Below, piece by piece: positions 4,897-29,913 of a stretch of DNA of 42,232 nt. Made by a program: the position numbers and the translations under genes. Below the pieces are notes generated by a model. It made no database searches. It saw nothing but the letters and a program-made list of their open reading frames with translations, and was not told the DNA's origin. Source of the DNA: a virus; the IMG/VR virus record IMGVR_UViG_3300024054_000028, positions 1-42,232 of that record, one strand, 5' to 3'. Positions within the stretch are counted from its first letter, which is position 1; each line of letters begins with the position of its first letter.

Positions 4897-5523
4897 TTAT
4901 TTTCCGCGACGCCCGGCGCTCGGGCCGATGTCGAGCATGGTGCGATAAACCCGGCCCACTACGCGAAAGGGGCCATCCACAAGAACCGGCCCGTGATCCC
5001 GATTAGTGCTGTAGGGGGCAAAGTGCTCCGGCCTGGACCGATAGCGCTTGTATGTGGTGCCATGGTCGCCATCCGCCGCGACCACATAGAAGCCGCCGTC
5101 GATCAGCCGAGTATCAGCACGATTGACGAAGATGATCGACCCAGGCGGGGATACGAGATCCATGCTATCGCCCTCGACGGATAGGGCAATCCAGTCTCCA
5201 GGCGGAAGATCGCTCGCGGCGATGTATCGCTCAACGTCCTCGGCCTTCACAGCTTCGCGCGCCGACAGATTGCTGGCGCTCACGAGGCTATCCAGCATGG
5301 GGACTTTTACGAGGCCGTCGGCATTCTCAAGAGGAGCCGGGAAGCCCGTGATCTCCTCGATAGCAATCATTTCGTCGCCCGCTACAGCTCGCTTGCCGAG
5401 CGTCATTTTGTTGACGGCGGCACGATCAATAGCGCGGTGCAAATGAGCAGTTAGCCGCCTCGCAAGCTCTGCCTGCGAGAGCTTCGAGTGCTTTAGCGCG
5501 TCTGTGACCCACTCCTGTAACAT
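4897..5523 (-). CDS. cI-like: LexA/CI-type phage repressor (HTH plus S24 peptidase fold)
   Basis: This 208-residue protein should keep the lysogen silent by binding the GTAGCG operators. The N-terminal HTH includes LSQAELARRL (residues 15-24). The C-terminal S24/LexA-like domain carries VEGDSMD with the catalytic-type Ser120 and Lys159 in TTYKRY. I place the start at the ATG of 5521-5523; a frame reaching 5862 exists, but it would run across all the right-hand operators and the Cro-like gene. I see no clear Ala-Gly or Cys-Gly cleavage site before Ser120, so RecA-stimulated self-cleavage is not assured. Its gene is flanked by operators on both sides, and its stop codon lies next to left site 2. 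Confidence 0.85.
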   Translation of the reverse strand: MLQEWVTDALKHSKLSQAELARRLTAHLHRAIDRAAVNKMTLGKRAVAGDEMIAIEEITGFPAPLENADGLVKVPMLDSLVSASNLSAREAVKAEDVERYIAASDLPPGDWIALSVEGDSMDLVSPPGSIIFVNRADTRLIDGGFYVVAADGDHGTTYKRYRSRPEHFAPYSTNRDHGPVLVDGPFRVVGRVYRTMLDIGPSAGRRGK

Positions 5524-5532
5524 AGGTTCGGC

Positions 5533-5549
5533 GTAGCGCGTATCGCGAC
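5533..5549. promoter_or_regulatory. repressor operator, right site 3 (imperfect)
   Basis: GTAGCGCGTATCGCGAC keeps one perfect half-site and differs by one base in the other. It lies 10 bases upstream of the repressor start, where binding could control the repressor's own promoter. Confidence 0.55.
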
Positions 5550-5557
5550 GCGCGTCC

Positions 5558-5574
5558 GTGACTAAGTTCGCTAC
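5558..5574. promoter_or_regulatory. repressor operator, right site 2 (one half-site degenerate)
   Basis: GTGACTAAGTTCGCTAC has a perfect right half-site and a degenerate left one. Its distance to right site 1 is 33 bp, the same as between the two left operators, which supports it as a real cooperative site. Confidence 0.55.
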
Positions 5575-5580
5575 ACCCGC

Positions 5581-5609
5581 TTGCAAACTCGTAGCGATAT
5601 GCGCTACAA
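5581..5609 (+). promoter_or_regulatory. early-right promoter (PR-like), predicted leaderless
   Basis: TTGCAA (5581-5586), a 17-base spacer and CTACAA (5604-5609) mirror the leftward promoter, with the operator at 5591-5607 in the spacer and -10. The expected start of RNA is near 5616, right at the ATG of the Cro-like gene (5617), so the first message is probably leaderless. TTGCAA is its own reverse complement, so it could also serve as the -35 of a repressor promoter on the other strand, but a good -10 there is not obvious. Confidence 0.65.
5591..5607. promoter_or_regulatory. repressor operator, right site 1
   Basis: GTAGCGATATGCGCTAC is a perfect GTAGCG-N5-CGCTAC site inside the rightward promoter, equivalent to left site 1. 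Confidence 0.75.
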
Positions 5610-5616
5610 GCGGCGC

Positions 5617-5847
5617 ATGGAACCGGCTGCCTCGATAGTCAGGGCCCTCGGAGGGCCATCCAAAGTCGCCGAGATTGTCGGTGTCCATCGGACGCGCGTC
5701 TCGAACTGGATGCGTCCCCGCTCGAAGGGCGGCACGGGAGGCTTCATCCCTCAGAAGCACGTCAGCAAGCTCCTCGGGTACGCCATCAAGCACGACAAGC
5801 CGGTCAGTGCGGCCTCGTTCATCCCAGCACCTGCGGAGGCGGCATGA
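5617..5847 (+). CDS. Cro-like HTH regulator
   Basis: This 76-residue protein is transcribed away from the repressor and is the first gene of the rightward operon, the standard place for Cro. The HTH spans about residues 12-34 (GGPSKVAEIVGVHRTRVSNW), followed by RPRSKGGTGGFIPQKHV, which is typical of small Cro/YdaS-like proteins of alphaproteobacteria. I chose the ATG at 5617 because earlier in-frame starts fall inside the operator and promoter. No Shine-Dalgarno is visible, in line with a leaderless message. It overlaps the next gene by 4 bases. Confidence 0.75.
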   Translation: MEPAASIVRALGGPSKVAEIVGVHRTRVSNWMRPRSKGGTGGFIPQKHVSKLLGYAIKHDKPVSAASFIPAPAEAA

Positions 5848-6479
5848 GCACAACCCCCACATTCATCTACCTGATCGAAGCGGCCAACGGCCTCGTGAAG
5901 ATCGGCGTCGCTCAGAAGGTGCGTGACCGCTTCCAGGCGACGCGCCTTCACAGCCCTGTTCTGACGCGCCTGATCGCATGCTGGCCCGGCTCTCAGGTTG
6001 ACGAGCACGCTCTGCATGAGCGGTTCCGTTCCTACCGCGAGCATGGCGAGTGGTTCGTGCTGCGCGGTGAGTTCGCTGCGTTCGTTGAGCGGTCGCGCGG
6101 CGTTGGGGTCGATCACATCCCGACTTGGGGCGATCTGAAGTTCAACAACCGACCGGCTTACGTGCTCAGGCGCAACCTTGAGCGCACGAAGGCTCGGCCG
6201 AAATATGCTGGCGCCGTCGCGTGTGAGACGAAAGTCGGCATCACTCCGCAACAGCGGCGCGTGCTTGATTACATCAGCGGCTACCTTGCCGAGCACGGCT
6301 GCGCCCCGAGCTACCAAGAGATCGGCGACAGCATCGGCGTGCTCAGCAAGTCGGGCGTCCACCGTCTCGTCCATGGCCTCGTCAGTCGTGGTCATCTGAG
6401 CCTTTCGCCGGGCCGTGGGCGCACCATCACTCTGTCAGAACAGCCCGCTGCGTCTGTGGCGAACGGAGTTGCGGCATGA
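5844..6479 (+). CDS. fusion of a GIY-YIG/T5orf172-like domain with a LexA-type winged helix
   Basis: Residues 8-85 look like a T5orf172/MUG113 (GIY-YIG-like) domain: FIYLIEAANGLVKIGVA, then the Arg-rich QATRLHSPVLTRLI, an HALHERF helix and GEWF. After a linker, residues about 133-197 match the LexA N-terminal DNA-binding domain: ITPQQRRVLDYISGYLAEHG, CAPSYQEIGDSIGV, SKSGVHRLVHGLVSRGHL and a GRGRTITL wing. No S24 peptidase domain follows. The combination suggests a DNA-binding protein, perhaps a nuclease directed to SOS-box-like sites or a regulator of phage or host genes. It overlaps neighbours by 4 bases on each side. Domain assignments are by eye. Confidence 0.7.
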   Translation: MSTTPTFIYLIEAANGLVKIGVAQKVRDRFQATRLHSPVLTRLIACWPGSQVDEHALHERFRSYREHGEWFVLRGEFAAFVERSRGVGVDHIPTWGDLKFNNRPAYVLRRNLERTKARPKYAGAVACETKVGITPQQRRVLDYISGYLAEHGCAPSYQEIGDSIGVLSKSGVHRLVHGLVSRGHLSLSPGRGRTITLSEQPAASVANGVAA

Positions 6480-11071: not shown

Positions 11072-12613
11072 ATGAGCTTGAGCCAAAAGGCTATCGAGTG
11101 GCTGGGGTCGCGCGCCATTGAGGCCGATGTCGCGGTGAAACACGGGATTTACACCGCTCGGCACGTGCCGGGTGGCGAGCCTAAGGCGGACGTCGCCGGC
11201 AACATCCTCGTGTTCCCTTACGTCGAGCGTGGCGAAGAGGTGAACGCCAAGTACCGGACCCGCGACAGGGACGGCGGGAAGAAATTCTGGCAGCGCTCGG
11301 GCGCCCGGAAGACGTTCTTCAACGCCGACGTACTGGACGATCCTGCGCTTGAGGCCGGGCAAGCGGCCCTTGTTATCACCGAAGGTGAATTGGACACGCT
11401 GGCAGCGATCCAGGCTGGGTATCCGTTTGCCGCTTCGGTTCCGGACGGCGCCCCGCCGGCTCGTGACGATCAGGGCAACCTTATCGCCGTGCCGGAGACG
11501 ACCGACGACATCGACCCGCAGCACGACGAGAAATACCGGTACGTCTTCAACAACTGGGACCGGCTAAAGCGCATCAAGCGCTTCGTCATCGCTACGGATG
11601 GCGACGAGCCGGGCCAGCGGCTTGCCCAGGAGCTTGCGCGCCGTCTTGGCCGTTCGCGGTGCGCGGTCATCACCTATCCGCCGGAGCCGACCGTGCCCGA
11701 TGCAGATGGCGTGCTGCGGCCGGTCAAAGACCTGAATGAGGTGTTGCAGCACTACGGCCCGGATGCGGTGCTCGCGTGCATTCATCGCGCCAAGCCGTTC
11801 CCGCTGAAGGGGCTCTACAAGCTCTCTGACTTTCCCGAGCGCCCGCCGCTTCAGGCGCTTTCGACTGGCTTTCACGCTCTTGATGAGCACATGCGACTTT
11901 ATCGCGGCGCCTTCGTCGTCGTGTCCGGCCTTCCTGGCGGCGGCAAGACGGCTCTGTTCACGCAGATCGCGATGAACATGGCGAAGATGCACAGCTGGCG
12001 GATTGCGATCGCCTCCTTCGAGATGCCGGTACGCCCGGTTCTCGAAAACATGCTGATCGGCTTCCTGCTGAACAAGCCTCGCTCGCAGTGGACCCGCGCC
12101 GCTTGCGATGAGGCTCGCGCCTTCATCGACGAGCATTTTGTGTTCATCTCCCTCTCGCCGGAGGACGACGACACGGAGAGCGACGTCCAGTGGGTGATCG
12201 AGCGCGCTGAGGAAGCGGTGATCCGCGATGGTGTGTCGATGCTGCTCTTGGACCCGTGGAACGAGGTCGAGCATAAGCGCCGGCCCGGCGAAAACGTCGC
12301 GGATTATACGAACCGAGCGGTGCGTTCGCTGAAGCGCTTCGCCATGGTCTACGACGTTTGCACCGTCGTCGTGGCGCACCCGACCAAGGCAGCCGGCGTC
12401 GCGGTGCGCAGCGGCGATGCCCTCTCCCTCTACGACATCTCGGATGGCGCCACCTGGGCGAACAAGGCCGAGTTGGGCGTGATGATACACCGTGACCCGA
12501 TGATGCCGGGCGGCGCGAACGTCGGCATTCGCAAGGTCAAGTTCCACGAGACAGGCAAGATCGGAGACGTCACGCTCGTGTTTGATACCGAGTTGCGGGG
12601 GTTCCTGCCATGA
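11072..12613 (+). CDS. TOPRIM primase-helicase (T7 gp4-like, lacking its zinc finger)
   Basis: This 513-residue enzyme should make primers and unwind DNA at the fork. TOPRIM motifs are ITEGELDT (Glu104) and ATDGDEPG (Asp176, Asp178). The DnaB/T7-type helicase has Walker A GLPGGGKT (286-293), Walker B MLLLDPWN (390-397) and an AHPTK segment like motif H3. The zinc-binding domain is encoded by the separate gene at 10240-10554. The ATG at 11072 follows GAGGTG; a GTG three bases upstream is also possible. The HNH gene lies directly in front. Confidence 0.9.
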
Positions 12614-12948
12614 ACCGGTGCCCCTCCTGCAACTCCCGCAAAAATCAGGTCTACGACAGCCGCCCACATGACGGGACGGTCAAGCGTCGCCGCCGCTGCC
12701 TCTCCTGCGACAGTCGATGGTCCACGTTCGAGGTGAGCGAGTCCACCTACGCCGCGATCCTCGAACTCGATCAGGCGCTCGCTGGCGTCGGCAAGACGCT
12801 CTCCACTGCCATGGATGCCATCGGCATCGCCCGCAACGAAGGGCTCCTGCTTCAGCAGGACTACGACCTTGAGAGCAACGGACATCGGAAGCTTCGGAAG
12901 CGCCGTGCCTTGGCTCGGTCCACCGCCCCCGCCTCACCCAACCCGTAG
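12610..12948 (+). CDS. NrdR-like zinc-ribbon protein
   Basis: This 112-residue protein starts with a zinc ribbon (CPSC at 4-7, CLSC at 30-33) and the NrdR signature elements VYDSR and KRRRRC...RWSTFE. NrdR represses ribonucleotide reductase genes in bacteria, but this protein lacks the ATP-cone domain and has a helical C-terminal part instead. It may be a phage DNA- or RNA-binding factor. It overlaps the helicase stop by 4 bases. Confidence 0.65.
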
Positions 12949-12966: not shown

Positions 12967-13713
12967 ATGACCGACGCTTCGACCACGACAGGCAAGCTCC
13001 ACAAGACCAAGGCCGGCGCGAAGGCCCGCAAATCGCGTAGGGCGGCCCGCGAGCGGCGTTCTCGCCAAAAAGCAGCCAACCCCTACGCCAGCGCGTCGAG
13101 GCCGTCAGGCGGGCGCGTGAGGCAAAATCGCAAGGCAGAGCGGTTCGACGTGGATCAGGGCCGTGGCTGGCTCATCGTTCGCGCGCAGCTCGGGCGGTTC
13201 TCTCAGGTGGTCGAGGGGCTGAAGCAGGCGGGGTGCCCGGTGTTTGAAGCTCGCCGCGAAATTCGGGTGCAGACGGAGGGCAAGCCGAAGGTGACCAACG
13301 CCCCGATGATGGGCCGCACCCTGTTCGTCGGCGTGGAAGAGCCGGAATACGCCTGTCTGCTCGCCGGGCTCGACTACGTGCATGGCATCTTGTGCCGAGG
13401 GGAGGGCGTGTGGATCTGGGCGGACGAGATTGCAATCCAGGGCGCCCGTCCGGCAGTCATCCCGCCGAAGATGATGACCGAGTTCGCGGACCACATCACG
13501 GGTCACAAGAAGGGCGGCAAGGGTGTGCAGGATTTCGTTGAGGCATTGTTCGCCGTGGGTGACGAGGTTCGGATCGCGGACGGCGCCTTTGCTACCTTCA
13601 TGGCCAAAATCGAGGGAGTTGACGTGAAGCGCGGGAGGTATACCGTTGCCGTCGATGTCTTCGGCCGCCCCGTTCCTTTCGAAATCGCCGAAGAAAGCTT
13701 AGAGGCCGCTTGA
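12967..13713 (+). CDS. NusG-family antitermination factor with arginine-rich N terminus
   Basis: This 248-residue protein has an NGN domain at residues about 66-180 (GWLIVRAQLGRFSQVVEGL, MMGRTLFVGV, then a helical end) and a KOW domain at about 194-242 (FAVGDEVRIADGAF, VDVFGRPVPFEI), the order of NusG/RfaH/LoaP proteins that ride RNA polymerase. In front lies a basic tail of about 50 residues with RAARERRSRQKAAN, very like the boxB-binding segment of lambda N (RRRERRAEKQAQWKAAN). The start has GGAGGAAAG upstream. It is the last early-right gene, directly before a strong promoter, a structured leader and a terminator, so I infer a late-gene antiterminator. Confidence 0.8.
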   Translation: MTDASTTTGKLHKTKAGAKARKSRRAARERRSRQKAANPYASASRPSGGRVRQNRKAERFDVDQGRGWLIVRAQLGRFSQVVEGLKQAGCPVFEARREIRVQTEGKPKVTNAPMMGRTLFVGVEEPEYACLLAGLDYVHGILCRGEGVWIWADEIAIQGARPAVIPPKMMTEFADHITGHKKGGKGVQDFVEALFAVGDEVRIADGAFATFMAKIEGVDVKRGRYTVAVDVFGRPVPFEIAEESLEAA

Positions 13714-13738
13714 CATCTCTCGCGGCTTGCTAACTTAT
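13710..13738 (+). promoter_or_regulatory. strong sigma70-type promoter (late promoter candidate)
   Basis: TTGACA (13710-13715), a 17-base spacer and ACTTAT (13733-13738). The -35 overlaps the last codons of the NusG-like gene. The expected start is near A13745, so the RNA begins AGGACACCCGAAG, whose GGACAC can pair with GTGTCC at 13855-13860. Confidence 0.65.
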
Positions 13739-13819
13739 GTCCTCAGGACACCCGAAGTGGCTGAGCGTTTGCGCCGCCCTGTCTGCCCCGAGCGGGAAAA
13801 GACCTTCGGCCCCTGCATG

Positions 13820-13840
13820 GCCCGCTGAAAAATGCGGGGC
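13820..13840 (+). promoter_or_regulatory. boxB-like hairpin in the leader
   Basis: CCCGC (13821-13825), TGAAAAAT, GCGGG (13834-13838) resembles lambda nutR boxB, GCCC-TGAAAAA-GGGC, including the purine-rich GAAAA loop. It competes with the longer stem GCCCC-GCAT/ATGC-GGGGC that uses the same 3' arm. A clear boxA is not visible nearby. Confidence 0.35.
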
Positions 13841-14315
13841 TGCCGCTAGGGGAAGTGTCCGCAAAATTTAAGGTTCGATGGCAGGCGGACGAGGCTAAGG
13901 CCCGTGAGCAAGTAGGCCCTACGGTGGGAGGGTGGTCGGCGGTCCTCACGACAGGAGGCCGTGTTGATGCCCCTGAGAACCACCGCAGCCGAACGCAAGC
14001 CGGGGTGGGAAGCGAGCGGCCTAGTCCATCGAAACAGTTTGGTGCGGCGACACGGTGAAAGGGCTTCGGCTCTGAGAGCGCACATAGACCCGCGCTCAAT
14101 CTGCTGGCCGTAGGACGAGGCACCACCGATGCTCCGGCTCGGATGACACGTCTCGGTTCGCGTTGTGGGGTTTTGTAGCAGGCCCCACCCGCATCAACAT
14201 CCTGTCTTAGCCGCGCCGGAGGGCCATTGACGCGGCGAGGCGATCAGCCAGGGCGTATCCTTCACCGGACGCAGCGGGGATGCCTCCTTCCTCCTGGCAC
14301 CAAGAAATCCGCCCA

Positions 14316-14351
14316 GGCTCCGGTCAGCGTCTCACGCCGCAGAGCCTTTTT
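14316..14351 (+). terminator. intrinsic terminator at the end of the leader
   Basis: GGCTC (14316-14320) pairs with GAGCC (14342-14346), an inner GCGT/ACGC stem stacks inside, and TTTTT follows at 14347-14351. It lies about 600 bases after the late promoter and about 60 before the first late gene, where an antiterminator would act. Confidence 0.6.
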
Positions 14352-14412
14352 GCACCCGAATGCCTGACGGTCTGGGCGGCCCCTTTCCATGCTCATTCCG
14401 GGAGACGAAGCG

Positions 14413-14718
14413 ATGAGCCGCGACGAAGCCACCATCGAGAAGATGATTCAGGATAAGGGCAAAACCGCCCCGCGCCTGACGCCCTCGCACATTGACGAGC
14501 AGATCGTCGGCGAGGCCTTCCACGTCTTTCCTGGCACCAGCCTCACTGTCTGCGCGCTGACCCTGCGCAACGGCTTTCAAGTGACGGGTGAGAGCGCATC
14601 GGCAAGCCTGGAGAACTTCGACGCCGAGATCGGCCGGAAGATCGCCCGTGACAATGCCCGCAACAAGATTTGGGCTCTCGAAGGTTACCTGCTTCGGTCG
14701 AAGCTCGCGGCGGCTTGA
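14413..14718 (+). CDS. Gp49-like protein (N4 gp49 / Sf6 gene 66 family)
   Basis: This 101-residue protein is the first gene after the terminator. It shows the family pattern: DEQIVGEAFHVFPGTSLTVCALTLRNGFQVTGES and the C-terminal IGRKIARDNARNKIWALEGYLL. The family is common in phages and has no firm function. I chose the ATG at 14413 with GGGAGA upstream, 8 codons inside a longer frame. Confidence 0.8.
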   Translation: MSRDEATIEKMIQDKGKTAPRLTPSHIDEQIVGEAFHVFPGTSLTVCALTLRNGFQVTGESASASLENFDAEIGRKIARDNARNKIWALEGYLLRSKLAAA

Positions 14719-14754
14719 CGACCGCCATCGAACCTCTCTCGCAGGACAAGCGCC

Positions 14755-14919
14755 ATGACTGAGCGAACCTGCGGGTGCCGCGCTTGTACGCCAGAGCCGT
14801 CGACATTCAGATTTGGCAGCCCGATGCGGTTTTTCGCCTGCCCGAAGTGCGGGAACAAGCGCTGCCCACACGCGACCGACCACCGCCTGCGATGCACCGG
14901 ATCGAACGAGCCGGGTTAA
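14755..14919 (+). CDS. 54-residue zinc-ribbon protein
   Basis: Starts MTERTCGCRACTPEP and contains FACPKCGNKRCPHATDHRL and GSNEPG, a pattern shared by a very common small phage protein. Its cysteines (CxCxxC, CPKC, CPH) probably bind zinc. Role unknown. It follows the Gp49-like gene by 36 bases with a weak AGGACAAG upstream. Confidence 0.7.
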   Translation: MTERTCGCRACTPEPSTFRFGSPMRFFACPKCGNKRCPHATDHRLRCTGSNEPG

Positions 14920-14993
14920 ATCGGCTCGGACTACGGCGTGCGGCTCTCTGAGGCCGAAATCGTTTCGCGGCTACGCTTCCGCAACAAAGCGAC

Positions 14994-15167
14994 ATGACCG
15001 AAGCCGATCGCCCCCTCAGCCTCTCTCAATCCCGCCGAGAAGCCAACGAGCGCATCACGGCTCGGATCTCTTCCTCCCACGGACTCACCCGACACACAGG
15101 CGAAGACAAGGCCGTGAGAGAGCAGAAGGGGAAGCCGAAGGGCGATCGGATGGCCGTGGGGGAGTGA
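14994..15167 (+). CDS. 57-residue charged protein
   Basis: Starts MTEADRPLSLSQSRREANER and ends in a Lys/Arg/Glu-rich tail. It is probably largely disordered. It is in line with its neighbours: the next gene starts two bases after its stop. No family recognised. Confidence 0.45.
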   Translation: MTEADRPLSLSQSRREANERITARISSSHGLTRHTGEDKAVREQKGKPKGDRMAVGE

Positions 15168-15168
15168 G

Positions 15169-15546
15169 ATGATCGGCATTGATGCGCTGCTCGGCAAAAC
15201 GCTTACGCGCGCCGAAGTCCGCAATGAAGATACCGAGATCACCTTTGAAGCGGAGGATGGCTCCTGCTTCCTGATGTACCACTATCAAGACTGCTGCGAG
15301 AGCGTGTACGTCGAGAGTGTGGTAGGCGATCTGTCTGACCTGATCGGATCTCCTATCCTGCAGGCCGAAGAGGTCGTTCAGATGAGCGGGGATGACGCCT
15401 CGCTTGAGGGCAGGGGCGATGAGAGTTTCACCTGGACCTTCTACAAGCTCGCCACGATTAAGGGCAGCGTGACGATCCGCTGGTATGGCGGCTCGAATGG
15501 CTACTATTCCGAAAGCGTGACGTTCAAGCAGCTTGAGGCCGCCTGA
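15169..15546 (+). CDS. DUF7448-like phage protein
   Basis: This 125-residue protein follows a well-conserved phage pattern: LLGKTL, FLMYHYQDCCESVYVESVVG, DLSDLIGSPILQAEEV, then TWTFYKLATIKGSVTIRWYG and SNGYYSESV. The family is found in phages of many hosts with unknown function. It sits between early and packaging genes. Confidence 0.75.
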   Translation: MIGIDALLGKTLTRAEVRNEDTEITFEAEDGSCFLMYHYQDCCESVYVESVVGDLSDLIGSPILQAEEVVQMSGDDASLEGRGDESFTWTFYKLATIKGSVTIRWYGGSNGYYSESVTFKQLEAA

Positions 15547-15547
15547 C

Positions 15548-15784
15548 ATGCTCCCCTCCGGCCTCGCCTCCATCTCCTCCCGCCTAGACGACTCCCCTCA
15601 GGTGAGGGCCGCTGTCGATATGGCGAAGAGGCTTCGCCGGGCCGAGGCGCTGTCGAAGCTGGCTGAGATGGATGCGCCGCTGATGTGCTCCGAGGGTGTG
15701 AACTACGAACCCCTCGGCTCGGCCATCGACCGTCACGCCGCTCTCGCCATCGGCTCGGCATACAAGGGCAGGGATCAGCGGTGA
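15548..15784 (+). CDS. small hypothetical protein
   Basis: This 78-residue helical protein has its start one base after the preceding stop and its stop overlapping the next ATG (TGATG). Segment AAVDMAKRLRRAEALSKLAEMD is a clear helix. No function assigned. Confidence 0.55.
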   Translation: MLPSGLASISSRLDDSPQVRAAVDMAKRLRRAEALSKLAEMDAPLMCSEGVNYEPLGSAIDRHAALAIGSAYKGRDQR

Positions 15785-15990
15785 TGGAGATCCTGTTCGG
15801 CATCCTCTCGACGCTGGTCTATGTTCTCGGCGTCACGTGCGCTGCCTTCCTTGGCGCGTTCGCCGCCTTCGTCGCGATCCTGTTCGTCGTCTCGGCCGTC
15901 AATGGCTTCGTGAAGGGCCGCCCCACGGAGCGATTTGGATCGGCTCCGCTTAACCCGCCGACCGGCGGCTCGTCAGGAAGCAAGCGGTAG
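15784..15990 (+). CDS. 68-residue membrane protein
   Basis: Two hydrophobic helices (FGILSTLVYVLGVTCAAFLG and AAFVAILFVVSAVNGF) are followed by a polar Gly/Pro/Ser-rich tail. It overlaps the gene before it as TGATG. A holin-like or exclusion role is possible, but nothing in the sequence decides. Confidence 0.6.
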   Translation: MEILFGILSTLVYVLGVTCAAFLGAFAAFVAILFVVSAVNGFVKGRPTERFGSAPLNPPTGGSSGSKR

Positions 15991-15994
15991 CGCC

Positions 15995-16231
15995 ATGCAG
16001 GCCTGTGAGACGTGCCGGCATTGGGCGGACGGCGGCTTCTCCCTTGAGACGGCGCGTAGGCTCGGTCTGATCGCAGCGGATGCACGGATTGCTTCCTGCG
16101 AGCGTGCCCACAGTGAGGCAGATAGCACCGCTCCTCTGATGGTTGCGTACGATGCAGCCGGTGGCGGCAACGACTCGTTCTTCACCCGCGCCGACTTCGG
16201 CTGCGTCGCTCACGAGCCCCGCGATGACTGA
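15995..16231 (+). CDS. small cysteine-rich protein
   Basis: This 78-residue protein begins MQACETCRHWADGGFSLETA and ends FFTRADFGCVAHEP. CxxC plus later cysteines suggest a zinc-binding fold like that of other small phage rubredoxin-type proteins. Function unknown. Confidence 0.6.
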   Translation: MQACETCRHWADGGFSLETARRLGLIAADARIASCERAHSEADSTAPLMVAYDAAGGGNDSFFTRADFGCVAHEPRDD

Positions 16232-16445
16232 CGTTTGGGCTGTGTGTCGCCTTCTGCCCGAGCAGGGCAAGGATGCCTGGGAGTTGAACGGCATCTACGC
16301 GACACAGGAAGCTGCGCTGGCAGCGTGCGTTGATGACCGTACCTCTGCGGCGCGCTTCGCCCTCGACAGGGACTACAGCGCCGAGAAGGTGTTCGATTGC
16401 ATCTGTCGCGCGCAGCCTGAGCCGCAGCCGTGGTCCGCTGGTTGA
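16224..16445 (+). CDS. small hypothetical protein
   Basis: This 73-residue protein starts MTDVWAVCRLLPEQGKDAWE, overlapping the preceding gene by 8 bases. The middle IYATQEAALAACVDD resembles short phage proteins described as having a two-strand, one-helix fold; no role is known. Confidence 0.55.
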   Translation: MTDVWAVCRLLPEQGKDAWELNGIYATQEAALAACVDDRTSAARFALDRDYSAEKVFDCICRAQPEPQPWSAG

Positions 16446-16522
16446 ACACCCTCGCCCTCACCTGGGCTCTCATCCTCGCCGCCAACCTCGCAATGGCTCT
16501 GACGGCGAATAGGCTTCCGTAG
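16430..16522 (+). CDS. possible 30-residue membrane peptide
   Basis: A GTG start and a single hydrophobic helix (LNTLALTWALILAANLAMAL), ending 7 bases before the small terminase gene. Too short for confidence; the hydrophobic pattern and position argue for it. Confidence 0.35.
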   Translation: MVRWLNTLALTWALILAANLAMALTANRLP

Positions 16523-16529
16523 TCACCTC

Positions 16530-17117
16530 ATGGCACTTAACCCGCAGCAGCAGAGGTTCGTCGAAGAATACCTCGTTGACCTCAACGCGACCCAGGCTGC
16601 GATCCGCGCCGGGTACAGCGAGGACACGGCGGGCTCTCAGGGCGGGCGCCTGTTGAAAAATGTTGAAATTGGAAAGGCGATTGCGGATGCGATGGCCGAG
16701 CGCTCCGTCCGCACTCGCGTCACCGCTGACCGGGTGTTGACTGAGCTTGCCCGTATCGGCTTTGGCGACATCCGCAGCGTCGTCGCGTGGCGGGCGAACA
16801 CCGCTGAGACCGGCAAGGAAGACGAGGACGGCGTGCCCGAGACGCGCGCGTTTAATGAGGTCGAGCTAATCGGCAGTGCGGAAATCGACCACGACGCGGC
16901 GGCGGCGGTGGCGGAGATCAGCCAGTCCAAGGACGGCGCGCTGAAGGTGAAGATGCACAACAAGGTCGCCGCCCTTCAAGAGATTGGGCGGCACCTCGGC
17001 ATCGCGCAGAAGCACGAGCACTCCGGCGCGGAAGGCGGTCCGATCCAAGTGACGGACATCGAGGCGGCTCGGCGCATGGCCTTCCTCTTGGCAAAGGGCA
17101 CGCGCGGTGCTGCTTGA
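16530..17117 (+). CDS. terS: terminase small subunit
   Basis: The small terminase subunit recognises the packaging site on phage DNA. This 195-residue protein has the Terminase_2 opening (NPQQQRFVEEYLVDLNATQAAIRAGYS), then RVLTELARIGFGDIRSVV and the family's KMHNKVAALQEIGRHLGI. A His/Glu linker and a C-terminal helix follow. It overlaps the large subunit by 11 bases, as is usual. Confidence 0.9.
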   Translation: MALNPQQQRFVEEYLVDLNATQAAIRAGYSEDTAGSQGGRLLKNVEIGKAIADAMAERSVRTRVTADRVLTELARIGFGDIRSVVAWRANTAETGKEDEDGVPETRAFNEVELIGSAEIDHDAAAAVAEISQSKDGALKVKMHNKVAALQEIGRHLGIAQKHEHSGAEGGPIQVTDIEAARRMAFLLAKGTRGAA

Positions 17118-18672
17118 TGATCTCTTGGCCCGGCTCTCTGTGTTGGACGACAAGGATCAGGCCGAAGCTCGCGACCACGCTGTTGCGGCGACTGCGGACA
17201 TGCCGTGGGTGCCCAACCCTGGCCCGCAGACGGATGCGTTCTTTACGCTCGCTGATGAAACGTTCTACGGCGGACAAGCTGGCGGCGGGAAGACTGATCT
17301 GGCCGTTGGGCTCGCGCTGACGACGCACAAGCGCAGCTTGATCCTTCGTCGCATCAACAAAGATGCACTCAAGATCGTCCCGCGGTTTGAGACGATCCTT
17401 GGCCACCGGGATGGCTACAACGGCCAACTCCAGCGCTGGCGTCTTGGCGACAAGCAAATCGACATCGCCGGCTGCGAGCAGGAGGCCGACAAGCAGCGCT
17501 TTAAGGGCGATCCGCACGACCTCATCGTGTTTGATGAGGGCACGGACTTCCTTGAAAGCCAGTACCGCTTCATCATCGGCTGGAACCGCTCGACCGATCC
17601 TGGCCAGCGTTGCCGCGTGCTGGTGACAAGCAACCCTCCGACGACCTCTGACGGGCTGTGGGTGATCCGGTATTGGGCGCCCTGGCTCGACCCGCTGCAC
17701 CCGAACCCGGCTAAGCCGGGCGAGTTGCGCTGGTTCACGACGATCGGCGGCGTGGACACAGAGGTGGAAGGGCAGGGGCCGCACGTCATTGAGGGCGAGC
17801 CGGAGCCGGTCTATGCTCGCTCTCGCACCTACCTGCCGGCCTCTCTGGCAGACAACCCGGACCTAGCCCGCACGAACTACGCCTCGGTGCTCGCCGGCAT
17901 GCCCGACGAGCTTCGTCGCGCTTACCGCGATGGAGACTTCAGCGTCAGCCTGAAGGATGCAGAATGGCAGGTGATCCCCACGGCATGGGTGATCGCCGCT
18001 GAGAAGCGCTGGAAGCCCGATGGCGGGCATGATGCGCCGATGACTGCCCTGGCCGTTGACCCAGCCGGCGGCGGCAAGGACAGTGAAGAGATCGGAGCGC
18101 GGCATGGCAACTGGTTCGCTCCCATTACGACGGAGACGGGGCCGCAGACCGCCGATGGCTCGGAAGCTGCGGCTCGGGTCATCAAGAGGCGCCGCAACCG
18201 CTGTGGTGTCATCGTGGACGTTGGCGGCGGCTATGGGGGCGGCATCACGCTGCGTCTGAAGGACAACGACATTCACCGCGTGCCTTTCCTCGGTTCGAAG
18301 GAGAGCACGAAGCGCACGAAGGATGGTCAACTCTCCTTCGCCAATAAGCGGGCGGAAAGCTGGTGGTCGCTTCGTGAAGCGCTCGACCCGGATCAGGATG
18401 GCGGCTCGCTCATCGCTCTGCCTCCGAATGCCGAACTCCGCGCGGATCTGTGCGCCCCAACGTGGAAGCTCACACAGCGCGGCATCCTTGTCGAGAGCAA
18501 GGAAGACCTCCGCAAGCGGCTCGGGCGCTCAACCGGCAAGGGCGACGTGGTGACGATGGTTTGGTCCGAGGGCGAGCGCGCCCTTGAGCTTGCCGAGAAA
18601 GAGCGCTCCGCGCGCAAGCCGAAACTTGTCATGCCGTCCCACGGGGCGTCGCAGACCGCTTGGATGGGGTGA
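17107..18672 (+). CDS. terL: terminase large subunit
   Basis: This 521-residue packaging motor has the ATPase Walker A GGQAGGGKT (55-63), Walker B DLIVFDEGTD (138-147) and a VLVTSNPP coupling motif near 171. The nuclease domain has ALAVDPAGGGKD with Asp318 and VIVDVGGGYGGG with Asp371, both of the RNase H-like type. It starts with GTG. A headful or cos mechanism cannot be told from the gene alone; P22-like relatives package by headful. Confidence 0.92.
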   Translation: MLLDDLLARLSVLDDKDQAEARDHAVAATADMPWVPNPGPQTDAFFTLADETFYGGQAGGGKTDLAVGLALTTHKRSLILRRINKDALKIVPRFETILGHRDGYNGQLQRWRLGDKQIDIAGCEQEADKQRFKGDPHDLIVFDEGTDFLESQYRFIIGWNRSTDPGQRCRVLVTSNPPTTSDGLWVIRYWAPWLDPLHPNPAKPGELRWFTTIGGVDTEVEGQGPHVIEGEPEPVYARSRTYLPASLADNPDLARTNYASVLAGMPDELRRAYRDGDFSVSLKDAEWQVIPTAWVIAAEKRWKPDGGHDAPMTALAVDPAGGGKDSEEIGARHGNWFAPITTETGPQTADGSEAAARVIKRRRNRCGVIVDVGGGYGGGITLRLKDNDIHRVPFLGSKESTKRTKDGQLSFANKRAESWWSLREALDPDQDGGSLIALPPNAELRADLCAPTWKLTQRGILVESKEDLRKRLGRSTGKGDVVTMVWSEGERALELAEKERSARKPKLVMPSHGASQTAWMG

Positions 18673-18674
18673 GC

Positions 18675-18947
18675 ATGCCCACCGAAGCCGACTTCGAACA
18701 GGCCCGCGATGGCATGATCGGGATGCTCAAGTCCTCGGACGAGCGCGTCCGGGGCGTCGCATGCCGATCCATCTTGAGCGCGTGGCTCGCCGCGCAACAG
18801 GCTTGTGCTGAATTGGCCAACGAGCACGTCGTGAATTTCCGGTGGGGCGATGAGCGCGTCCGCATTCGGCAGGGCGGCCGGGAATGGCTCGTTTCTTATG
18901 ACGGTCTCGTGGACGAGTACGTCTGCCGTCCGGTCAGGGACGCCTGA
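18675..18947 (+). CDS. small hypothetical protein between terminase and portal
   Basis: This 90-residue protein has a helical first half (DFEQARDGMIGMLKSSDERV) and a beta-like end (FRWGDERVRIRQGGREWLVS). The stop overlaps the portal ATG by one base. No family recognised. Confidence 0.6.
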   Translation: MPTEADFEQARDGMIGMLKSSDERVRGVACRSILSAWLAAQQACAELANEHVVNFRWGDERVRIRQGGREWLVSYDGLVDEYVCRPVRDA

Positions 18948-21148
18948 TGCCTCGCGAGACCAAAGAAGAGCGCGAGATCGTCCGCCGTGCGCAGAAGCGG
19001 TTCAAGGCTGCCCAGGATTGGGAGAGCGGAGCCCGTCAGCGTCTCGTTGAAGACCTGAAGTTTGCCGAGGCCGACTCGGACAACCTGTATCAGTGGGACC
19101 GGAACACCTATAACTCGCGCACCAACGATCCGAACGGCGCCCGCCCGTGCCTGACCGTCAACAAGGTCCGCCAGCACAACCTTCAGATCCTCAATGACGC
19201 GCGTCAGAACAAGGCGTCGATCGACATCCGGCCGACCGGCGACGGCGCGACCTACGACAGCGCCAAGATTTTCGAGGGCGTGGTTCGCCACATCGAATAC
19301 CGCTCGAACGCCACCGAGGCGTATGAGGCCGCGTCTCATTCGCAGATTTACGGGGGCTGGGGGTACTGGCGCATCCTGACCGAGTACGCGGATCAGGACA
19401 GCTTCGATCTGGACATCAAGATCCAGCGCGTTTCTGACACGCTGTCGATCTACCTTGACCCGGACATCGAGGATTTCGACGGCTCGGATGCGCGGTGGGG
19501 CTTCGTGTTCCGCGATGTGCCGAAGGAGCGGTTCGAAGCCGAGTACCCGCAGTGGAAGGACGTCGTTGGCCGCAACGCCCTCTGCGACGAGGGAAAGTCG
19601 TGGGATGATGGCGATCACGTCCGCATCGCGGAGTATTACGAGCGGGAGGAGGTGGCCGACCGCCTCTACTCGCTGGTTGATGGCAGCACGCTCCTGCGCA
19701 GCGACATTCCCGAGGATCTGCGCGAGACCTTCGACAGCTTGAAGGGCATGCCGGGACCGGACGGGGAGCCGATCCTGATCCGCGCCGAGCGCCGCACGAC
19801 GCGCTGGCGGGTGAAGTGGTACAAGATCGCCGGCAGCCGCATCGTGGATCGCAAGGACTGGCCGGGCCAGTTCATCCCGATTGTTCGCGTCATCGGCGAA
19901 GAGACCGTTATTGACGGCAAGTTGGACCGGAAGGGCCATACCCGCGCGCTGAAGGATGCGCAGCGGATGTACAACTTCTGGACTTCGGCGGCAGCTGAGT
20001 TTGGCGCCCTTCAGGGCAAGACGCCCTACGTCGCCCCGGTTGCGGCGATTGAGGGCTTCGAGAACTACTGGAACAACGCCAACAAGGTGAACTACTCGGT
20101 CCTGCCATACAACCACATGTCGGATGACGGGCAGACGATCCCGCCGCCGCAGCGTGCGCAGCCGCCGGTTCAGTCCACCGCCTACCTCACGGGCATGCAG
20201 ACCGCGGCCCAAGAACTCATGCTCGCCTCTGGCCAGTACCAGAGCGAGATGGGCGCCCCTTCCAACGAGCGCAGCGGCGTCGCGATCCAGCAGCGTCAGC
20301 GCCAGGGCGACAACGCGACGTATCACTACATCGACCACCTCGCGCAGGCGATCCGCTTCACCGGCCGCATTCTGATCGACCTCATCCCGAAGGTCTACGA
20401 CACCGAGCGCGTCGTGAAGATCATGGCCGAGGACGGGAGCCTGACCGACATTCAGGTGGACCCAGCGAGCAAAGAGCCCGTCACGAAGATGGTCGATGGT
20501 CAACCAGTCGATGACGAGCAACTGAAGGCTGCGCAGGCTGACCCGGATCTGCGCGACAAGGTGGCGACGATCTTCAACCCGAACGTCGGCAAGTACGCCG
20601 TCGAGAGCGACATCGGCCCGGCCTACGCGACCCGCCGTCAGGAGGCGTTCGCAGCCCTGTCCGACATGCTGAAAACCAACAGCGACCTCGCCAAGATCGC
20701 GGGCGACATCCTGTTCAAGTCGGCGGACTTTCCCGGCGCGGATGAGGTGGCGGAGCGCATCAAGCGCACCATCCCGCCGAATATCCTCGGGCAGGGCGTT
20801 CCGCCGGCCGAACAGCAGCTTCAGGAGCGCGTCCAGCAGCTCACGGCGCTGCTTCAGCAGATGGACGCCGCGCTCAACGAGAAGCAAGCCAAGGAGGCAT
20901 CCGAGGCCGAGAACCGCGACGATCGGCACATGCTGGACAGCTACCGCGCCGAGACGGATCGGATGAAGGCGCTGGCTGCCTCCGATCCGGAAGCATTCCG
21001 CCCCGTGATCCGCCAGTTGATCGGCGACGCGCTCGGGATCGACCTCAACAGCGTCATGGCCCGACAGGCTTTTGGCGACGCTCTCCGCGGCGCGATGCCC
21101 GGAGCCGTGAATGGGGCGCTGTCGCCCCAGGTTCAGGCCACAGCCTGA
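18947..21148 (+). CDS. portal protein, P22 gp1-like
   Basis: The portal forms the ring through which DNA enters and leaves the head. This 733-residue protein has the P22-type layout: a helical start, DNLYQWDRNTYNSR, RPCLTVNKVRQHNLQILND near residues 67-85, then IYGGWGYWRILTEYAD, IYLDPDIEDFDGSDARWGF, and a long helical barrel C terminus with Gln-rich coiled coil (QLQERVQQLTALLQQMDA, about 625-650). The size agrees with P22 gp1 (about 725). It follows terminase directly. Confidence 0.88.
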   Translation: MPRETKEEREIVRRAQKRFKAAQDWESGARQRLVEDLKFAEADSDNLYQWDRNTYNSRTNDPNGARPCLTVNKVRQHNLQILNDARQNKASIDIRPTGDGATYDSAKIFEGVVRHIEYRSNATEAYEAASHSQIYGGWGYWRILTEYADQDSFDLDIKIQRVSDTLSIYLDPDIEDFDGSDARWGFVFRDVPKERFEAEYPQWKDVVGRNALCDEGKSWDDGDHVRIAEYYEREEVADRLYSLVDGSTLLRSDIPEDLRETFDSLKGMPGPDGEPILIRAERRTTRWRVKWYKIAGSRIVDRKDWPGQFIPIVRVIGEETVIDGKLDRKGHTRALKDAQRMYNFWTSAAAEFGALQGKTPYVAPVAAIEGFENYWNNANKVNYSVLPYNHMSDDGQTIPPPQRAQPPVQSTAYLTGMQTAAQELMLASGQYQSEMGAPSNERSGVAIQQRQRQGDNATYHYIDHLAQAIRFTGRILIDLIPKVYDTERVVKIMAEDGSLTDIQVDPASKEPVTKMVDGQPVDDEQLKAAQADPDLRDKVATIFNPNVGKYAVESDIGPAYATRRQEAFAALSDMLKTNSDLAKIAGDILFKSADFPGADEVAERIKRTIPPNILGQGVPPAEQQLQERVQQLTALLQQMDAALNEKQAKEASEAENRDDRHMLDSYRAETDRMKALAASDPEAFRPVIRQLIGDALGIDLNSVMARQAFGDALRGAMPGAVNGALSPQVQATA

Positions 21149-21196
21149 CGATTGCCCGACCGGCCGGGATAGCCGGGCACCATCTTGGGATCACCC

Positions 21197-22042
21197 ATGC
21201 TTGAGACCGAACAGAACGCCCCTCAGGGCGAGAATGATGCTGCGCGCACTCAGGAGCCCGGCCAGGGCCAGGAAGCCCGTCAGGAGGCCGCAGAGGGCGC
21301 GCGAGAGGAAGGACAGGAAGGCGCCGCAGCCGAACCCGAAGGCGAAGCCGCAGAAGGCGCAGAGGGCAGCGAGCGAGCCGAAGAGCAGACCGAGCCGGAA
21401 GCGGATCAGCCCGACCTTCCCAAGTGGGTACAGCGGCGCATTGATGAGCTGACGCGCAGGCGCCACGAGGCCGAGCGCAAGGCACAGGAGCTTGCCGACC
21501 GACTGTCGCGGTTCAACCAAGGGCCGGGCGAAAGCGGCGAGGGCGCCCAAGCCGAAGCTGAGCAAGCCATCCGGCAGGAAAACCCAGCCCTGTCACAGGA
21601 GCAGGTGCGGGCCGAGGCGCAGCGCATCGTCTCCGAGCAGCAGTTCAACAACGACTGCAACGCGGCGTTCGAGGCCGGGGCCTCCAAGTTCCCCGATTTC
21701 GAGAAGACGGTGCAGAAGTTCCAGAACCTCGGCGGCCTGCCGCAGGACTTCATCACCGACGCGCTCTCCGCCGGCAACGCCCACCTGACGCTGTACCACC
21801 TCGGCCGCAATCTGGACGAAGCGGATCGCGTCATGTCCCTGCCGCCGCGGCAGCGCATGGCCGCTCTGGCCCGGCTGTCCGACAAGCTGGCGGCCCCACC
21901 GCCGCCCAAGCCCATTTCCCGCGCCCCCGCGCCGATCGAGCCCGTCAACGGAGCCGGTCGCCCGAGCGCGCTGAACACCGATCCCGACGCCCTCTCCACC
22001 GAGGAGTGGATGCGTCGGCGGAATGCCGGCGAAATCCGGTAG
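21197..22042 (+). CDS. scaffolding / capsid assembly protein
   Basis: Lying between portal and coat, this 281-residue protein has an extremely acidic, Glu/Gly/Ala-rich N terminus (residues 1-75), a coiled-coil stretch (RRIDELTRRRHEAERKAQEL), a helical middle and a Pro-rich tail ending in EEWMRRRNAGEI. This is typical of scaffold proteins of P22-like and T7-like phages, which guide coat assembly and then leave. Assignment rests on place and composition. Confidence 0.75.
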   Translation: MLETEQNAPQGENDAARTQEPGQGQEARQEAAEGAREEGQEGAAAEPEGEAAEGAEGSERAEEQTEPEADQPDLPKWVQRRIDELTRRRHEAERKAQELADRLSRFNQGPGESGEGAQAEAEQAIRQENPALSQEQVRAEAQRIVSEQQFNNDCNAAFEAGASKFPDFEKTVQKFQNLGGLPQDFITDALSAGNAHLTLYHLGRNLDEADRVMSLPPRQRMAALARLSDKLAAPPPPKPISRAPAPIEPVNGAGRPSALNTDPDALSTEEWMRRRNAGEIR

Positions 22043-22053
22043 CCACCCCTAAC

Positions 22054-22146
22054 AAGCCCTCTCGGCGGGTCAAAGCCGTGCCCCGCGTGTCTGCCGGATC
22101 TAACGCACCCGGAACTTCTAAGCCTTCTCGGCAGGCTAAGCCGTGC
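22054..22146 (+). repeat. two imperfect direct repeats in the scaffold-coat gap
   Basis: The 224-base gap 22043-22266 has no gene. It holds AAGCCCTCTCGGCGGG-TCAAAGCCGTGC (22054-22081) and AAGCCTTCTCGGCAGG-CTAAGCCGTGC (22120-22146), spaced 66 bases apart. Each can form a short stem (AGCC/GGCT in the second copy). They could shape mRNA before the highly expressed coat gene. Confidence 0.5.
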
Positions 22147-22266
22147 ATCTCGCCACGCTCCGGATCGAGACCGGAATTCGCCGCGGACGAAAGGACCGCG
22201 CCCTGATCTCGCCCGCGCGCCGAGCCTGAGAGCCGCGCCGGGGGCAAATCCGAGGCCCATCACGCT

Positions 22267-23487
22267 ATGGCCAATTCGCTCCTTACCACCCAGGCGATCA
22301 CCCGAGAGGCGATCCGTCTGTTCAAGAACTCCAACCGGTTCCTTCAGTCGGTCGATCGTCAGTACGACGGCCAGTTCGCCCGTACCGGCGCCAAGATCGG
22401 CGCGAACCTGAACATCCGCCTCCCCAACGATTACGTCGTGCGCCGCGGCCCCACCGCCGCCCCGCAGGACACGGTGGAGAAGCAGACACCGGTTGCCATC
22501 GCGAACCAGACCGGCGTGGACATCGCGTTCTCGACCGCGGATCGCGCGCTGTCGCTGGACGATTACTCCCGGCGCGTTCTCGCCCCGGCGATCAACGTCC
22601 TGGCCGGCGCCGTCGCGTCGGACGTGATGGGCCTCGCCGAGACCATCCCGAACGTCGCCCGCAATGCGGACGGCTCGAACAACACCATCTCGCCGAACAT
22701 GGCCACCTTCCTCACGGCGGGCGCCATTCTCGACCGCTTCGGCGTCAGCCGTGCGCCGGGTCAGCGCATGGTGACTTTCGACCCCACCACCCAGGCTCGC
22801 ACCGTCGCGTCGTTCTCGACCCTGTTCAACGACCAGAACAAGGTCTCTCAGCAGTACCGCGAAGGCGTGCTGCGCAACGACGTGCTCGGCTTCGACTGGC
22901 AGATGGATCAGACGGTCATTCTGCACACGACGGGCGCCTATGGTGCTCTGCCGACCGTGGCAGGCGCCAACCAGTCCGGCTCGGCCATCACCGTGTCGGC
23001 GCTCGCCGGTCCGCTCAAGAAGGGCGACTTCGTTTCCTTCGCGGGCGTCAACTCGGTCAACCGCATCACCAAGCAGAACGACGGCGTGCTTGCGCGTTTC
23101 GTTGTGACCGCAGACGTGGCAGCTGGCTCGACCTCGATCCCGATCTATCCGGCGCTCATCCCGCCGGTGGGTGGTGTCGCGGTGCCCTACCAGACCGTTT
23201 CGGCTTCCCCGGCCAACGGCGCGGCTGTCACCAGCCCGTTCCCGGCCGGCGAGACCTACCGCAAGAACGTCGTGCTCTCGCCCGACGCGCTGACGATGGT
23301 TTCGGCCGACCTGGAGATCCCCGGCGGCGTCCACGAGGCCCATCGCGAGAGCTTCGACGGCATCTCGATGCGTTTGGTCACGGCCTACAACATCATGTCT
23401 GATCAAATGGTGACAAGACTTGACCTGTTGTATGGCTTTGCCCCGGTCCGGCCGGAATTTGCTGCAATCGTAGCGGATGCGGTCTGA
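22267..23487 (+). CDS. major capsid protein, P22 coat-like
   Basis: This 406-residue coat protein follows the P22-coat pattern: NSLLTTQAITREAIRLFKNS at the start, IGANLNIRLPNDYVVRRGP, VDIAFSTADRALSLDDYSRR near 90, an insertion domain of beta strands around 235-325 (KKGDFVSFAGVNSVNR) and a final segment AHRESFDGISMRLVTAYN...LDLLYGFAPVRPEFAAIV. The length fits the HK97-fold P22 coat (430). Confidence 0.88.
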   Translation: MANSLLTTQAITREAIRLFKNSNRFLQSVDRQYDGQFARTGAKIGANLNIRLPNDYVVRRGPTAAPQDTVEKQTPVAIANQTGVDIAFSTADRALSLDDYSRRVLAPAINVLAGAVASDVMGLAETIPNVARNADGSNNTISPNMATFLTAGAILDRFGVSRAPGQRMVTFDPTTQARTVASFSTLFNDQNKVSQQYREGVLRNDVLGFDWQMDQTVILHTTGAYGALPTVAGANQSGSAITVSALAGPLKKGDFVSFAGVNSVNRITKQNDGVLARFVVTADVAAGSTSIPIYPALIPPVGGVAVPYQTVSASPANGAAVTSPFPAGETYRKNVVLSPDALTMVSADLEIPGGVHEAHRESFDGISMRLVTAYNIMSDQMVTRLDLLYGFAPVRPEFAAIVADAV

Positions 23488-23498
23488 GGAATACTGAT

Positions 23499-23966
23499 AT
23501 GAGCGAATATCCCCGCATGCTCTATCACAGCGATGGCCGCATGGCCGTTGCTGAGAGCGCCTACCACGAGAAGCATGAGTTCGGCGAAGGCTGGTCTCGT
23601 GAGCCTCAGGACGCGCACCGTCGCGAGCCGACTGACGGTCGCTGGAATACGTCGGAGCCCCTGGCCCCGGTCGAGCCCGGCACTGTCCCCACCATGCCGC
23701 GCGACACGCCCGGCCCGGTCGATGCCGGCACGGTTCGCGCCATCATCCGGCAGGAGATGCAGGAGCACCCCGGCTTCGACCTGTCGGGCGCGGCCTCTCA
23801 GGAGGACGTGGACGCTCTGCACGACAAGCTGGACGTCCTGCTGAAGCAACTCGGCGTCGAGATGCCGGCCAATGAGGGCGATCAGCCGCGCAAGCGCCGT
23901 GGCCGTCCGCCGAAGACCCCCGACAACAAGCTGACCGGCTCGGCCGGCAACGGCGCAGAGGAGTGA
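23499..23966 (+). CDS. hypothetical head-region protein with AT-hook-like motif
   Basis: This 155-residue protein is polar and likely mostly disordered, with a short helix (EDVDALHDKLDVLLKQLG) and, near residue 130, PRKRRGRPPKTP, which matches the AT-hook DNA-binding motif. Located between coat and tail adaptor genes. It might bind packaged DNA or act during injection; this is inference. Confidence 0.6.
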   Translation: MSEYPRMLYHSDGRMAVAESAYHEKHEFGEGWSREPQDAHRREPTDGRWNTSEPLAPVEPGTVPTMPRDTPGPVDAGTVRAIIRQEMQEHPGFDLSGAASQEDVDALHDKLDVLLKQLGVEMPANEGDQPRKRRGRPPKTPDNKLTGSAGNGAEE

Positions 23967-23972
23967 GCCGCC

Positions 23973-24329: not shown

Positions 24330-24349
24330 CGCCGCTTCGGTGGCCATTG

Positions 24350-24387
24350 ATCCCCGCGCGTCAGCCTAACCGCAGGCGCGCGGGGAT
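24350..24387 (+). other. strong RNA hairpin before the gp4-like gene
   Basis: ATCCCCGCGCG (24350-24360) and CGCGCGGGGAT (24377-24387) pair perfectly over 11 bp around a 16-base loop. No T-run follows, so it is not a classical terminator. It may be a processing site or attenuator separating head from tail gene expression. Confidence 0.55.
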
Positions 24388-24405
24388 TGCGGCTGGGATA
24401 AACGC

Positions 24406-25287: not shown

Positions 25288-25289
25288 TC

Positions 25290-29912: not shown

Positions 29913-29913
29913 G

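Follow-up and report, generated by a model that had tools for sequence, protein, structure and literature searches.

Antitermination and specialised NusG paralogs

In phage lambda, late transcription starts constitutively at pR'/qut, a promoter located beside the last early gene and followed by the terminated tR' leader, where the Q protein, which is not a NusG homologue, binds the promoter DNA in a process involving sigma-dependent pausing. The N protein of the same phage reads the nut/boxB RNA hairpin through a basic N-terminal arm, contains neither NGN nor KOW domains, and works together with the host NusG. A third solution is found in HK022, whose put element, an RNA that folds at the 5' end of the transcript, makes the polymerase resistant to termination with no need of a phage protein. 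On the bacterial side, specialised NusG paralogs are known from capsule, LPS and antibiotic operons; RfaH with its ops element and UpxY are NGN+KOW paralogs devoted to specific operons, the former having a fold-switching C-terminal domain, and paralogs of this kind can act by displacing NusG and evading Rho. To our knowledge, the activation of late genes outside the lambda group of phages is mostly unknown. A further case, LoaP of Bacillus velezensis, is a NusG paralog that needs the dfn RNA hairpin within a terminated leader, promotes read-through in vitro on its own, and binds the UNCG hairpin of dfn with both of its domains (PMC12691694). Here we describe a phage locus in which the last early gene encodes a NusG paralog and is followed by a predicted promoter and an untranslated leader, gene and leader probably forming an antitermination switch for the late genes.

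The NusG paralog and its genomic context

The locus comes from a 42,232-bp IMG/VR virus record, the whole of which is called the window hereafter. The presence of a CI-like repressor gene (4897–5862, minus strand) indicates a probably temperate phage, and the late genes that a preliminary description had announced after the leader were recognised as follows, together with the paralog itself:

12967–13713, plus strand: NusG paralog, last early gene, 248 aa (basic N-terminal arm, NGN domain, KOW domain)
13000–13137, plus strand: Arg/Lys-rich N-terminal arm of the paralog (about residues 12–57), missing from housekeeping NusG
14413–14718, plus strand: gp49_66-like protein, first late gene (ORF listed from 14389; likely start ATG 14413)
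16530–17117, plus strand: terminase small subunit, late region
17107–18672, plus strand: terminase large subunit, late region
18947–21148, plus strand: P22-like portal, late region
22267–23487, plus strand: major head protein, late region

Two other plus-strand genes were observed in the window. One (5844–6479) is divergent from the CI-like repressor gene and overlaps its start; in its 211-aa product, a T5orf172/MUG113 domain of GIY-YIG type precedes a DNA-binding domain of LexA type. The other (12610–12948) immediately precedes the paralog gene and codes for a zinc ribbon protein resembling NrdR (PF22811, E 4e-12).

The NGN-KOW architecture initially assigned to the product of 12967–13713 is borne out by profile searches. 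The protein matches PHROG 6386 'transcription antiterminator' (E 5e-22) and TIGR00922 (E 1.2e-11), its C-terminal KOW resembles NusG chains of the PDB (about 1e-7), and the Pfam KOW model reaches 5e-4, slightly short of the Pfam cut-off. Moreover, a profile of the window family built from nine relatives (A4) aligns over both NGN and KOW with residues 7–180 of E. coli NusG (E 7e-19); KOW was found in all nine A4 members, and in the window protein NGN and KOW follow each other with the order and length typical of the NusG/Spt5 superfamily. Judged by its sequence, the product is a NusG paralog of this superfamily. It fails as a housekeeping NusG against the NCBIfam nusG equivalog (44.7 bits versus a cut-off of 135.7), a separate housekeeping NusG being also listed in most paralog-bearing genomes, and it fails the UpxY model NF033644 (32.2 bits versus a cut-off of 100), UpxY being the second-best NCBIfam model for A4 proteins, with E values down to 1e-14. 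The NCBIfam antiterm_LoaP model does not list the window protein at E 0.01 and matches five of the nine A4 relatives (best 1.6e-7); the window protein is also unlisted for the RfaH model, matched again by five of the nine relatives (best 1.3e-7). The family most likely represents a NusG lineage distinct from LoaP, with leader RNAs of its own.

A particular trait of this family is the N-terminal arm. The A4 profile reaches PDB NusG only from position ~51, and the window protein is therefore extended by ~57 residues at its N terminus; housekeeping NusG genes align from position 53. The mean Arg plus Lys share among 77 family proteins is 31% in the 45 residues preceding NGN versus 13% elsewhere, and most members carry the basic arm. 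An AlphaFold model obtained with three sequences showed a pLDDT of 37.5, too low for use, and placed a helix at 15–37; in a PDB search, no known RNA-binding arm matched that of the family in sequence. As for the idea that this protein takes the place of Q, the paralog itself is confirmed and no Q- or N-like PHROG match appeared among the early ORFs scanned (a subset of the early ORFs); the replacement as such belongs to the mechanism proposed below.

Relatives and conserved gene order

Searches with A4 revealed 76 paralogs in 53 of the 111 genomes of one Methylobacterium-like genus, covering about half of its sampled species and set apart from housekeeping NusG by score (housekeeping E about 1e-22) and by the N-terminal arm. 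The genus is probably Methylobacterium itself, as suggested by a plasmid of Methylobacterium indicum that matches the leader at 78% and by the sharing of modules. The wider family gave a paralog in only three of 179 sampled genomes, near relatives of the window protein were essentially absent from the phage and plasmid records, and single-protein scans of genome contigs yielded no useful relative. The closest relative is a 60.5-kb virus record (L001/L007), whose NusG is 94% identical to that of the window; another candidate, L005, was discarded as an independent relative because it is 100% identical to the window.

Altogether, 79 loci were examined (77 from genomes, the window and L007). The largest ORF within 6 kb downstream, scanned at 57 loci, was mostly a terminase large subunit or a portal of several unrelated families (TerL_nuclease 15, Terminase_6C 7, GpA 3, Phage_portal_3 9 and Phage_portal_2 3), which indicates that the gene-promoter-leader unit has been joined to different late modules. 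The preliminary description had staked its reading in advance on a link between gene and leader in relatives, and we find that in many unrelated prophages the gene is accompanied by a structured leader and by a promoter at the gene's 3' end, the whole unit preceding packaging genes; this link is real.

A different NusG-like gene, encoding 184 aa without the basic arm, was observed after a primase gene in L009 (3312–3866; also in L010 and L011). This related phage has a portal 74% identical to that of the window and the NusG-like gene at the same place, with a TTGACA near its stop codon and a gap of ~230 nt to the next gene.

A predicted promoter overlapping the stop codon of the gene

The 3' end of the paralog gene contains the following element:

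13710–13738, plus strand: predicted promoter (-35 TTGACA 13710–13715, N17 spacer, -10 ACTTAT 13733–13738; start about 13745)

The TTGACA-N17-ACTTAT reported to overlap the last codons is thus present, the nusG stop codon TGA (13711–13713) sitting within the -35 box. The site scores nine of 12 consensus positions and is omitted by a generic promoter scan, which demands an A at the second -10 position. The preliminary description had noticed no comparable plus-strand promoter in the late region; one further plus-strand 9/12 site occurs at 30829 within the scanned interval 14400–34000. Generic promoter and terminator scans of the window gave nothing beyond the chance level of shuffled sequence, and the entire leader folds like its shuffles (z 0.49). 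Since neither promoter, whole fold nor terminator rises above chance in the window alone, the case rests on comparison.

In this regard, CTTGAC overlaps the stop codon at 18 of the 79 paralog loci versus 13 of 1350 control ORFs, which were the other long ORFs from the same DNA (Fisher p 4e-16, for loci that are related and not independent). These 18 loci are spread over eight of the 13 protein clusters defined at 50% identity. Moreover, the motif CAGGWYAY (CAGG[A/T][T/C]A[T/C]) begins exactly 31 nt past the stop at eight loci from three clusters, including the window.

A folded RNA element at the start of the leader

The 5' portion of the leader shows this predicted organisation:

13744–13868, plus strand: 5' leader RNA element (CAGGACAC motif, P1, P2 with two hairpins, branched hairpin)
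13746–13751/13855–13860, plus strand: stem P1
13752–13757/13804–13809, plus strand: stem P2, enclosing two hairpins
13821–13825/13834–13838, plus strand: stem of the branched hairpin, after P2

The first 125 nt of the leader fold better than their shuffles (z -2.15), versus a mean of -0.27 (sd 0.85) for 19 coding windows of equal length. The promoter and leader of L007 match those of the window up to 13868, where similarity ends abruptly. Over this 5' stretch the two sequences show nine differences in 155 nt (5.8%), versus 26% at third codon positions of the gene. Seven of the nine differences fall within the predicted transcript and none breaks a pair: four of them make up two C-G to U-A pair exchanges (13751/13855 and 13823/13836), and the other three lie in loops. 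The structure is a joint prediction for both sequences, and each one alone gives the same result, plus one extra pair in L007. Such a pattern of substitutions indicates that the first ~125 nt of the leader are a folded RNA under selection on its fold. A boxB-like loop, GCCCGCUGAAAAAUGCGGGGC (about 13819–13839), was considered as a target for the arm and rejected, as no common GNRA-type loop is kept across relatives.

A perfect palindrome, TGTCCTCAGGACA (13738–13750), spans the predicted transcription start in both the window and L007 and is a possible operator. The whole element could then be an autoregulatory or operator site for its own promoter, with the paralog acting elsewhere, for example on host transcription. 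We regard this as very improbable: the palindrome does lie right over the predicted start, yet most relatives lack it while having CAGGWYAY and the stems, and both compensated pairs map outside of it.

Leader RNA types and protein subfamilies

Two covariance models were derived from the leaders of relatives, R1 from one leader type and R2 from 20 matches. R2 describes the motif, a P2 stem enclosing two hairpins and then another hairpin. Its 20-sequence alignment has 97.2% of cells paired and two-sided changes in 21 of 29 pairs, one P2 pair occurring as GC, AU, CG and UA; none of 500 shuffles reaches this covariation and slid structures give at most four two-sided pairs, the figures being favoured by an alignment that was fitted to the structure. 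A search of 110 whole genomes (about 0.7 Gb) with R2 returned 33 matches. In 27 cases a paralog on the same strand lies at most 2.4 kb upstream of the match, a count that is not fully independent because the 20 model sequences came from beside NusG paralogs. The remaining six comprise three partial promoterless copies in one genome, a weak match, and two complete promoter-leader units (L226 4106 and L227 4674, on the leader strand) with no paralog in the few kb examined around them; these may be orphan targets on which a paralog encoded at another place in the genome acts in trans. The three partial type A copies (L223, L224 and L225, genome G1275), two of them at contig ends, are found in a genome whose NusG locus also stops at a contig edge, perhaps through the spread or interruption by a repeated element.

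A second leader, type B, is unrelated to type A and shows two-sided changes in 10 of 23 predicted pairs. Type A leaders accompany 18 of the 20 members of one protein cluster, and type B leaders 13 of the 22 members of another and both members of a small one, so leader type tracks protein subfamily. A good share of the paralogs have no recognised leader. The leaders of most relatives fold no better than shuffles; folding energy being uninformative for whole leaders, covariation alone was used as evidence. Rfam searches on the leaders of 14 relatives detected only tRNAs, and five leaders (L112, L163, L174, L182 and L197) have a tRNA gene between promoter and late genes, the window having none.

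The window leader was excluded from the building of R2. Within 13600–14500 (901 bp), the best match of the model is 13744–13883 (14.4 bits, E 5e-4); the alignment sets in precisely at the motif and includes P2 with the two hairpins inside it. When the search covers the whole window, two other positions come out slightly ahead (15.8 and 15.7 bits), so that membership of the type A family is not proven. The window element likely shares its architecture with type A leaders, its link to the type A covariance model being weak.

These data bear on a rival explanation, in which phage transcription uses the paralog as a general processivity or anti-Rho factor, independent of any leader element. The leader would then be conserved for some other purpose, such as mRNA stability, tRNA carriage or ribosome loading, and its position beside the gene would simply reflect that no early gene comes after this one. 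The ability of NusG paralogs to displace NusG and avoid Rho, the tRNAs in several leaders and the paralogs without a recognised leader would all fit. Such a factor, however, would not account for leader type tracking protein subfamily, for the many subfamilies whose promoter runs over the stop codon of the paralog gene itself, nor for the several loci where 1.6–2.3 kb of DNA are inserted between gene and leader and the leader is still kept downstream on the same strand. We consider this explanation unlikely.

The rest of the leader

Beyond 13868, the leader contains the following features:

14035–14197, plus strand: central noncoding module, 92.6% identical to part of the L174 leader
14206–14305, plus strand: 3' noncoding module, also present at 78% identity before an HNH endonuclease gene of the Methylobacterium indicum plasmid
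14309–14318/14370–14379, plus strand: long hairpin, CCGCCCAGGC, kept in the window, L173 and L174, enclosing the terminator-like stem
14316–14320/14342–14346, plus strand: terminator-like stem GGCTC/GAGCC with a 21-nt loop, followed by TTTTT at 14347–14351

The absence of a convincing gene over ~600 bases is corroborated: 13714–14412 has no coding signal, its GC by phase being 69/64/60, where the NusG gene has 66/49/78 and the gene after the leader 61/45/77. A hidden gene was also rejected because the substitutions between the window and L174 are not codon-spaced. No Rfam match above the gathering threshold and no tRNA match were found in the window leader. Comparison of the central module with its L174 counterpart reveals one double-compensated pair (14166/14187). 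Further downstream, part of the L173 leader matches 14307–14392 at 85% identity, and L174 matches 14296–14379 at 75%. The 3' module occurs alone in the M. indicum plasmid (L004 12001–12095, NZ_AP024147.1), before the HNH endonuclease gene, and may be a mobile or separately functional RNA; the plasmid was discarded as a second NusG locus, the upstream gene there not being NusG. By these comparisons, the leader beyond 13868 is a chain of exchangeable noncoding modules. Of the ~600-nt structured leader originally claimed, the ~125-nt 5' element (13744–13868) stands, and the single 600-nt structure gives way to such modules.

A similar nuance applies to the GGCTC/GAGCC plus T5 terminator, whose sequence is present but with a loop of 21 nt. 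The terminator scan does not list it, and its stem and T-run are lost in L174, being roughly kept in L173. The enclosing hairpin wins in the minimum-energy fold (-32.7 kcal/mol for the region versus -9.2 for the terminator stem alone), although termination at 14351 would still be possible during transcription, since the downstream arm of that hairpin is made later. Altogether, an intrinsic terminator at 14351 is weakly supported, and Rho-dependent loss in the untranslated leader is at least as plausible.

A folded, conserved leader with a predicted promoter and a possible terminator near its end, whose modules are swapped between phages as units, also brings to mind a separate late noncoding RNA with a trans-acting role, comparable to the lambda late 6S RNA region or to phage sRNAs, for which the fold would be conserved. 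This is very unlikely in our opinion, as such an RNA would hardly explain the conserved association with one protein family, the fixed distance of the element from the promoter, nor the fact that only the first ~125 nt are common to the window and its closest relative.

A proposed switch for phage late genes

The evidence directly supports the protein family, the recurring gene-promoter-leader-late-gene order, selection acting on the fold of the RNA, and the correspondence between leader and protein types. Building on it, we infer promoter activity, default termination, recognition of RNA or DNA, and antitermination, in the following way. The last early gene would yield the NusG paralog, with the late promoter held in the 3' end of the gene. 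The late transcript would open with the folded element 13744–13868, followed by several hundred untranslated nucleotides, and polymerases would be lost by default in this leader through Rho or weak intrinsic sites. The paralog would join RNA polymerase near the leader start through its NGN domain, and the basic N-terminal arm and/or NGN probably contacts the 5' element, as RNA or as non-template DNA; the compensated pairs point to RNA, which we favour. The paralog would then displace host NusG, and the polymerase would keep elongating across the leader and the ~28 kb late operon. We hold it rather probable that gene and leader work as such a late-gene antitermination switch.

A broader version of this model, which we put forward tentatively and to which we would give somewhat less than even chances, is that one arm-fused NusG paralog replaces N/Q and NusG by recognising its cognate 5' RNA, and that subfamilies and at least two unrelated families of leader RNA have diverged as matched pairs, insulating the late switches of co-resident prophages.

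The accessible parts of the NusG-paralog reviews mention plasmid and prophage copies of rfaH-like genes, and those parts describe no phage late-gene system of this kind. Our literature search, whose coverage left out most subscription papers and all bioRxiv preprints, found no phage late switch operated by a NusG paralog. The recurrence of the gene-promoter-RNA unit, with protein and RNA types matched, suggests a mode of late-gene activation in phages that had not been described before. For one bacterial genus it offers a concrete answer to late-gene activation, a protein of NusG lineage with matched leader RNAs, and, if true, the realm of specialised NusG paralogs would extend to the late control of phages. 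It would also add at least two leader RNA families outside Rfam, and would offer naturally occurring pairs of protein and RNA with which to examine target finding by NusG paralogs.

Comparison with known systems

Like lambda N, the paralog has a basic N-terminal arm, a likeness seen by eye only and for which the PDB search gave no sequence match. A folded RNA at the transcript start recalls HK022 put, which in contrast works without a phage protein. The proposed arrangement resembles that of lambda Q, with a constitutive late promoter by the last early gene, a terminated leader, an antiterminator loaded near the start and a very long late operon, but here we find a NusG-family protein and a conserved folded leader RNA, with no Q homologue among the early ORFs scanned. 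RfaH and UpxY are likewise NGN+KOW paralogs, from which the window protein differs in its phage late-gene context and in not reaching their curated cut-offs. The nearest working parallel would be LoaP, by analogy of a NusG paralog acting on long operons whose leader has a recognition hairpin and a terminator. We know of no basic N-terminal arm in LoaP, the nine A4 proteins are far from the NCBIfam LoaP model (five of nine match, best E 1.6e-7), and LoaP serves bacterial antibiotic-synthesis operons, whereas the paralog described here would serve the late genes of a phage.
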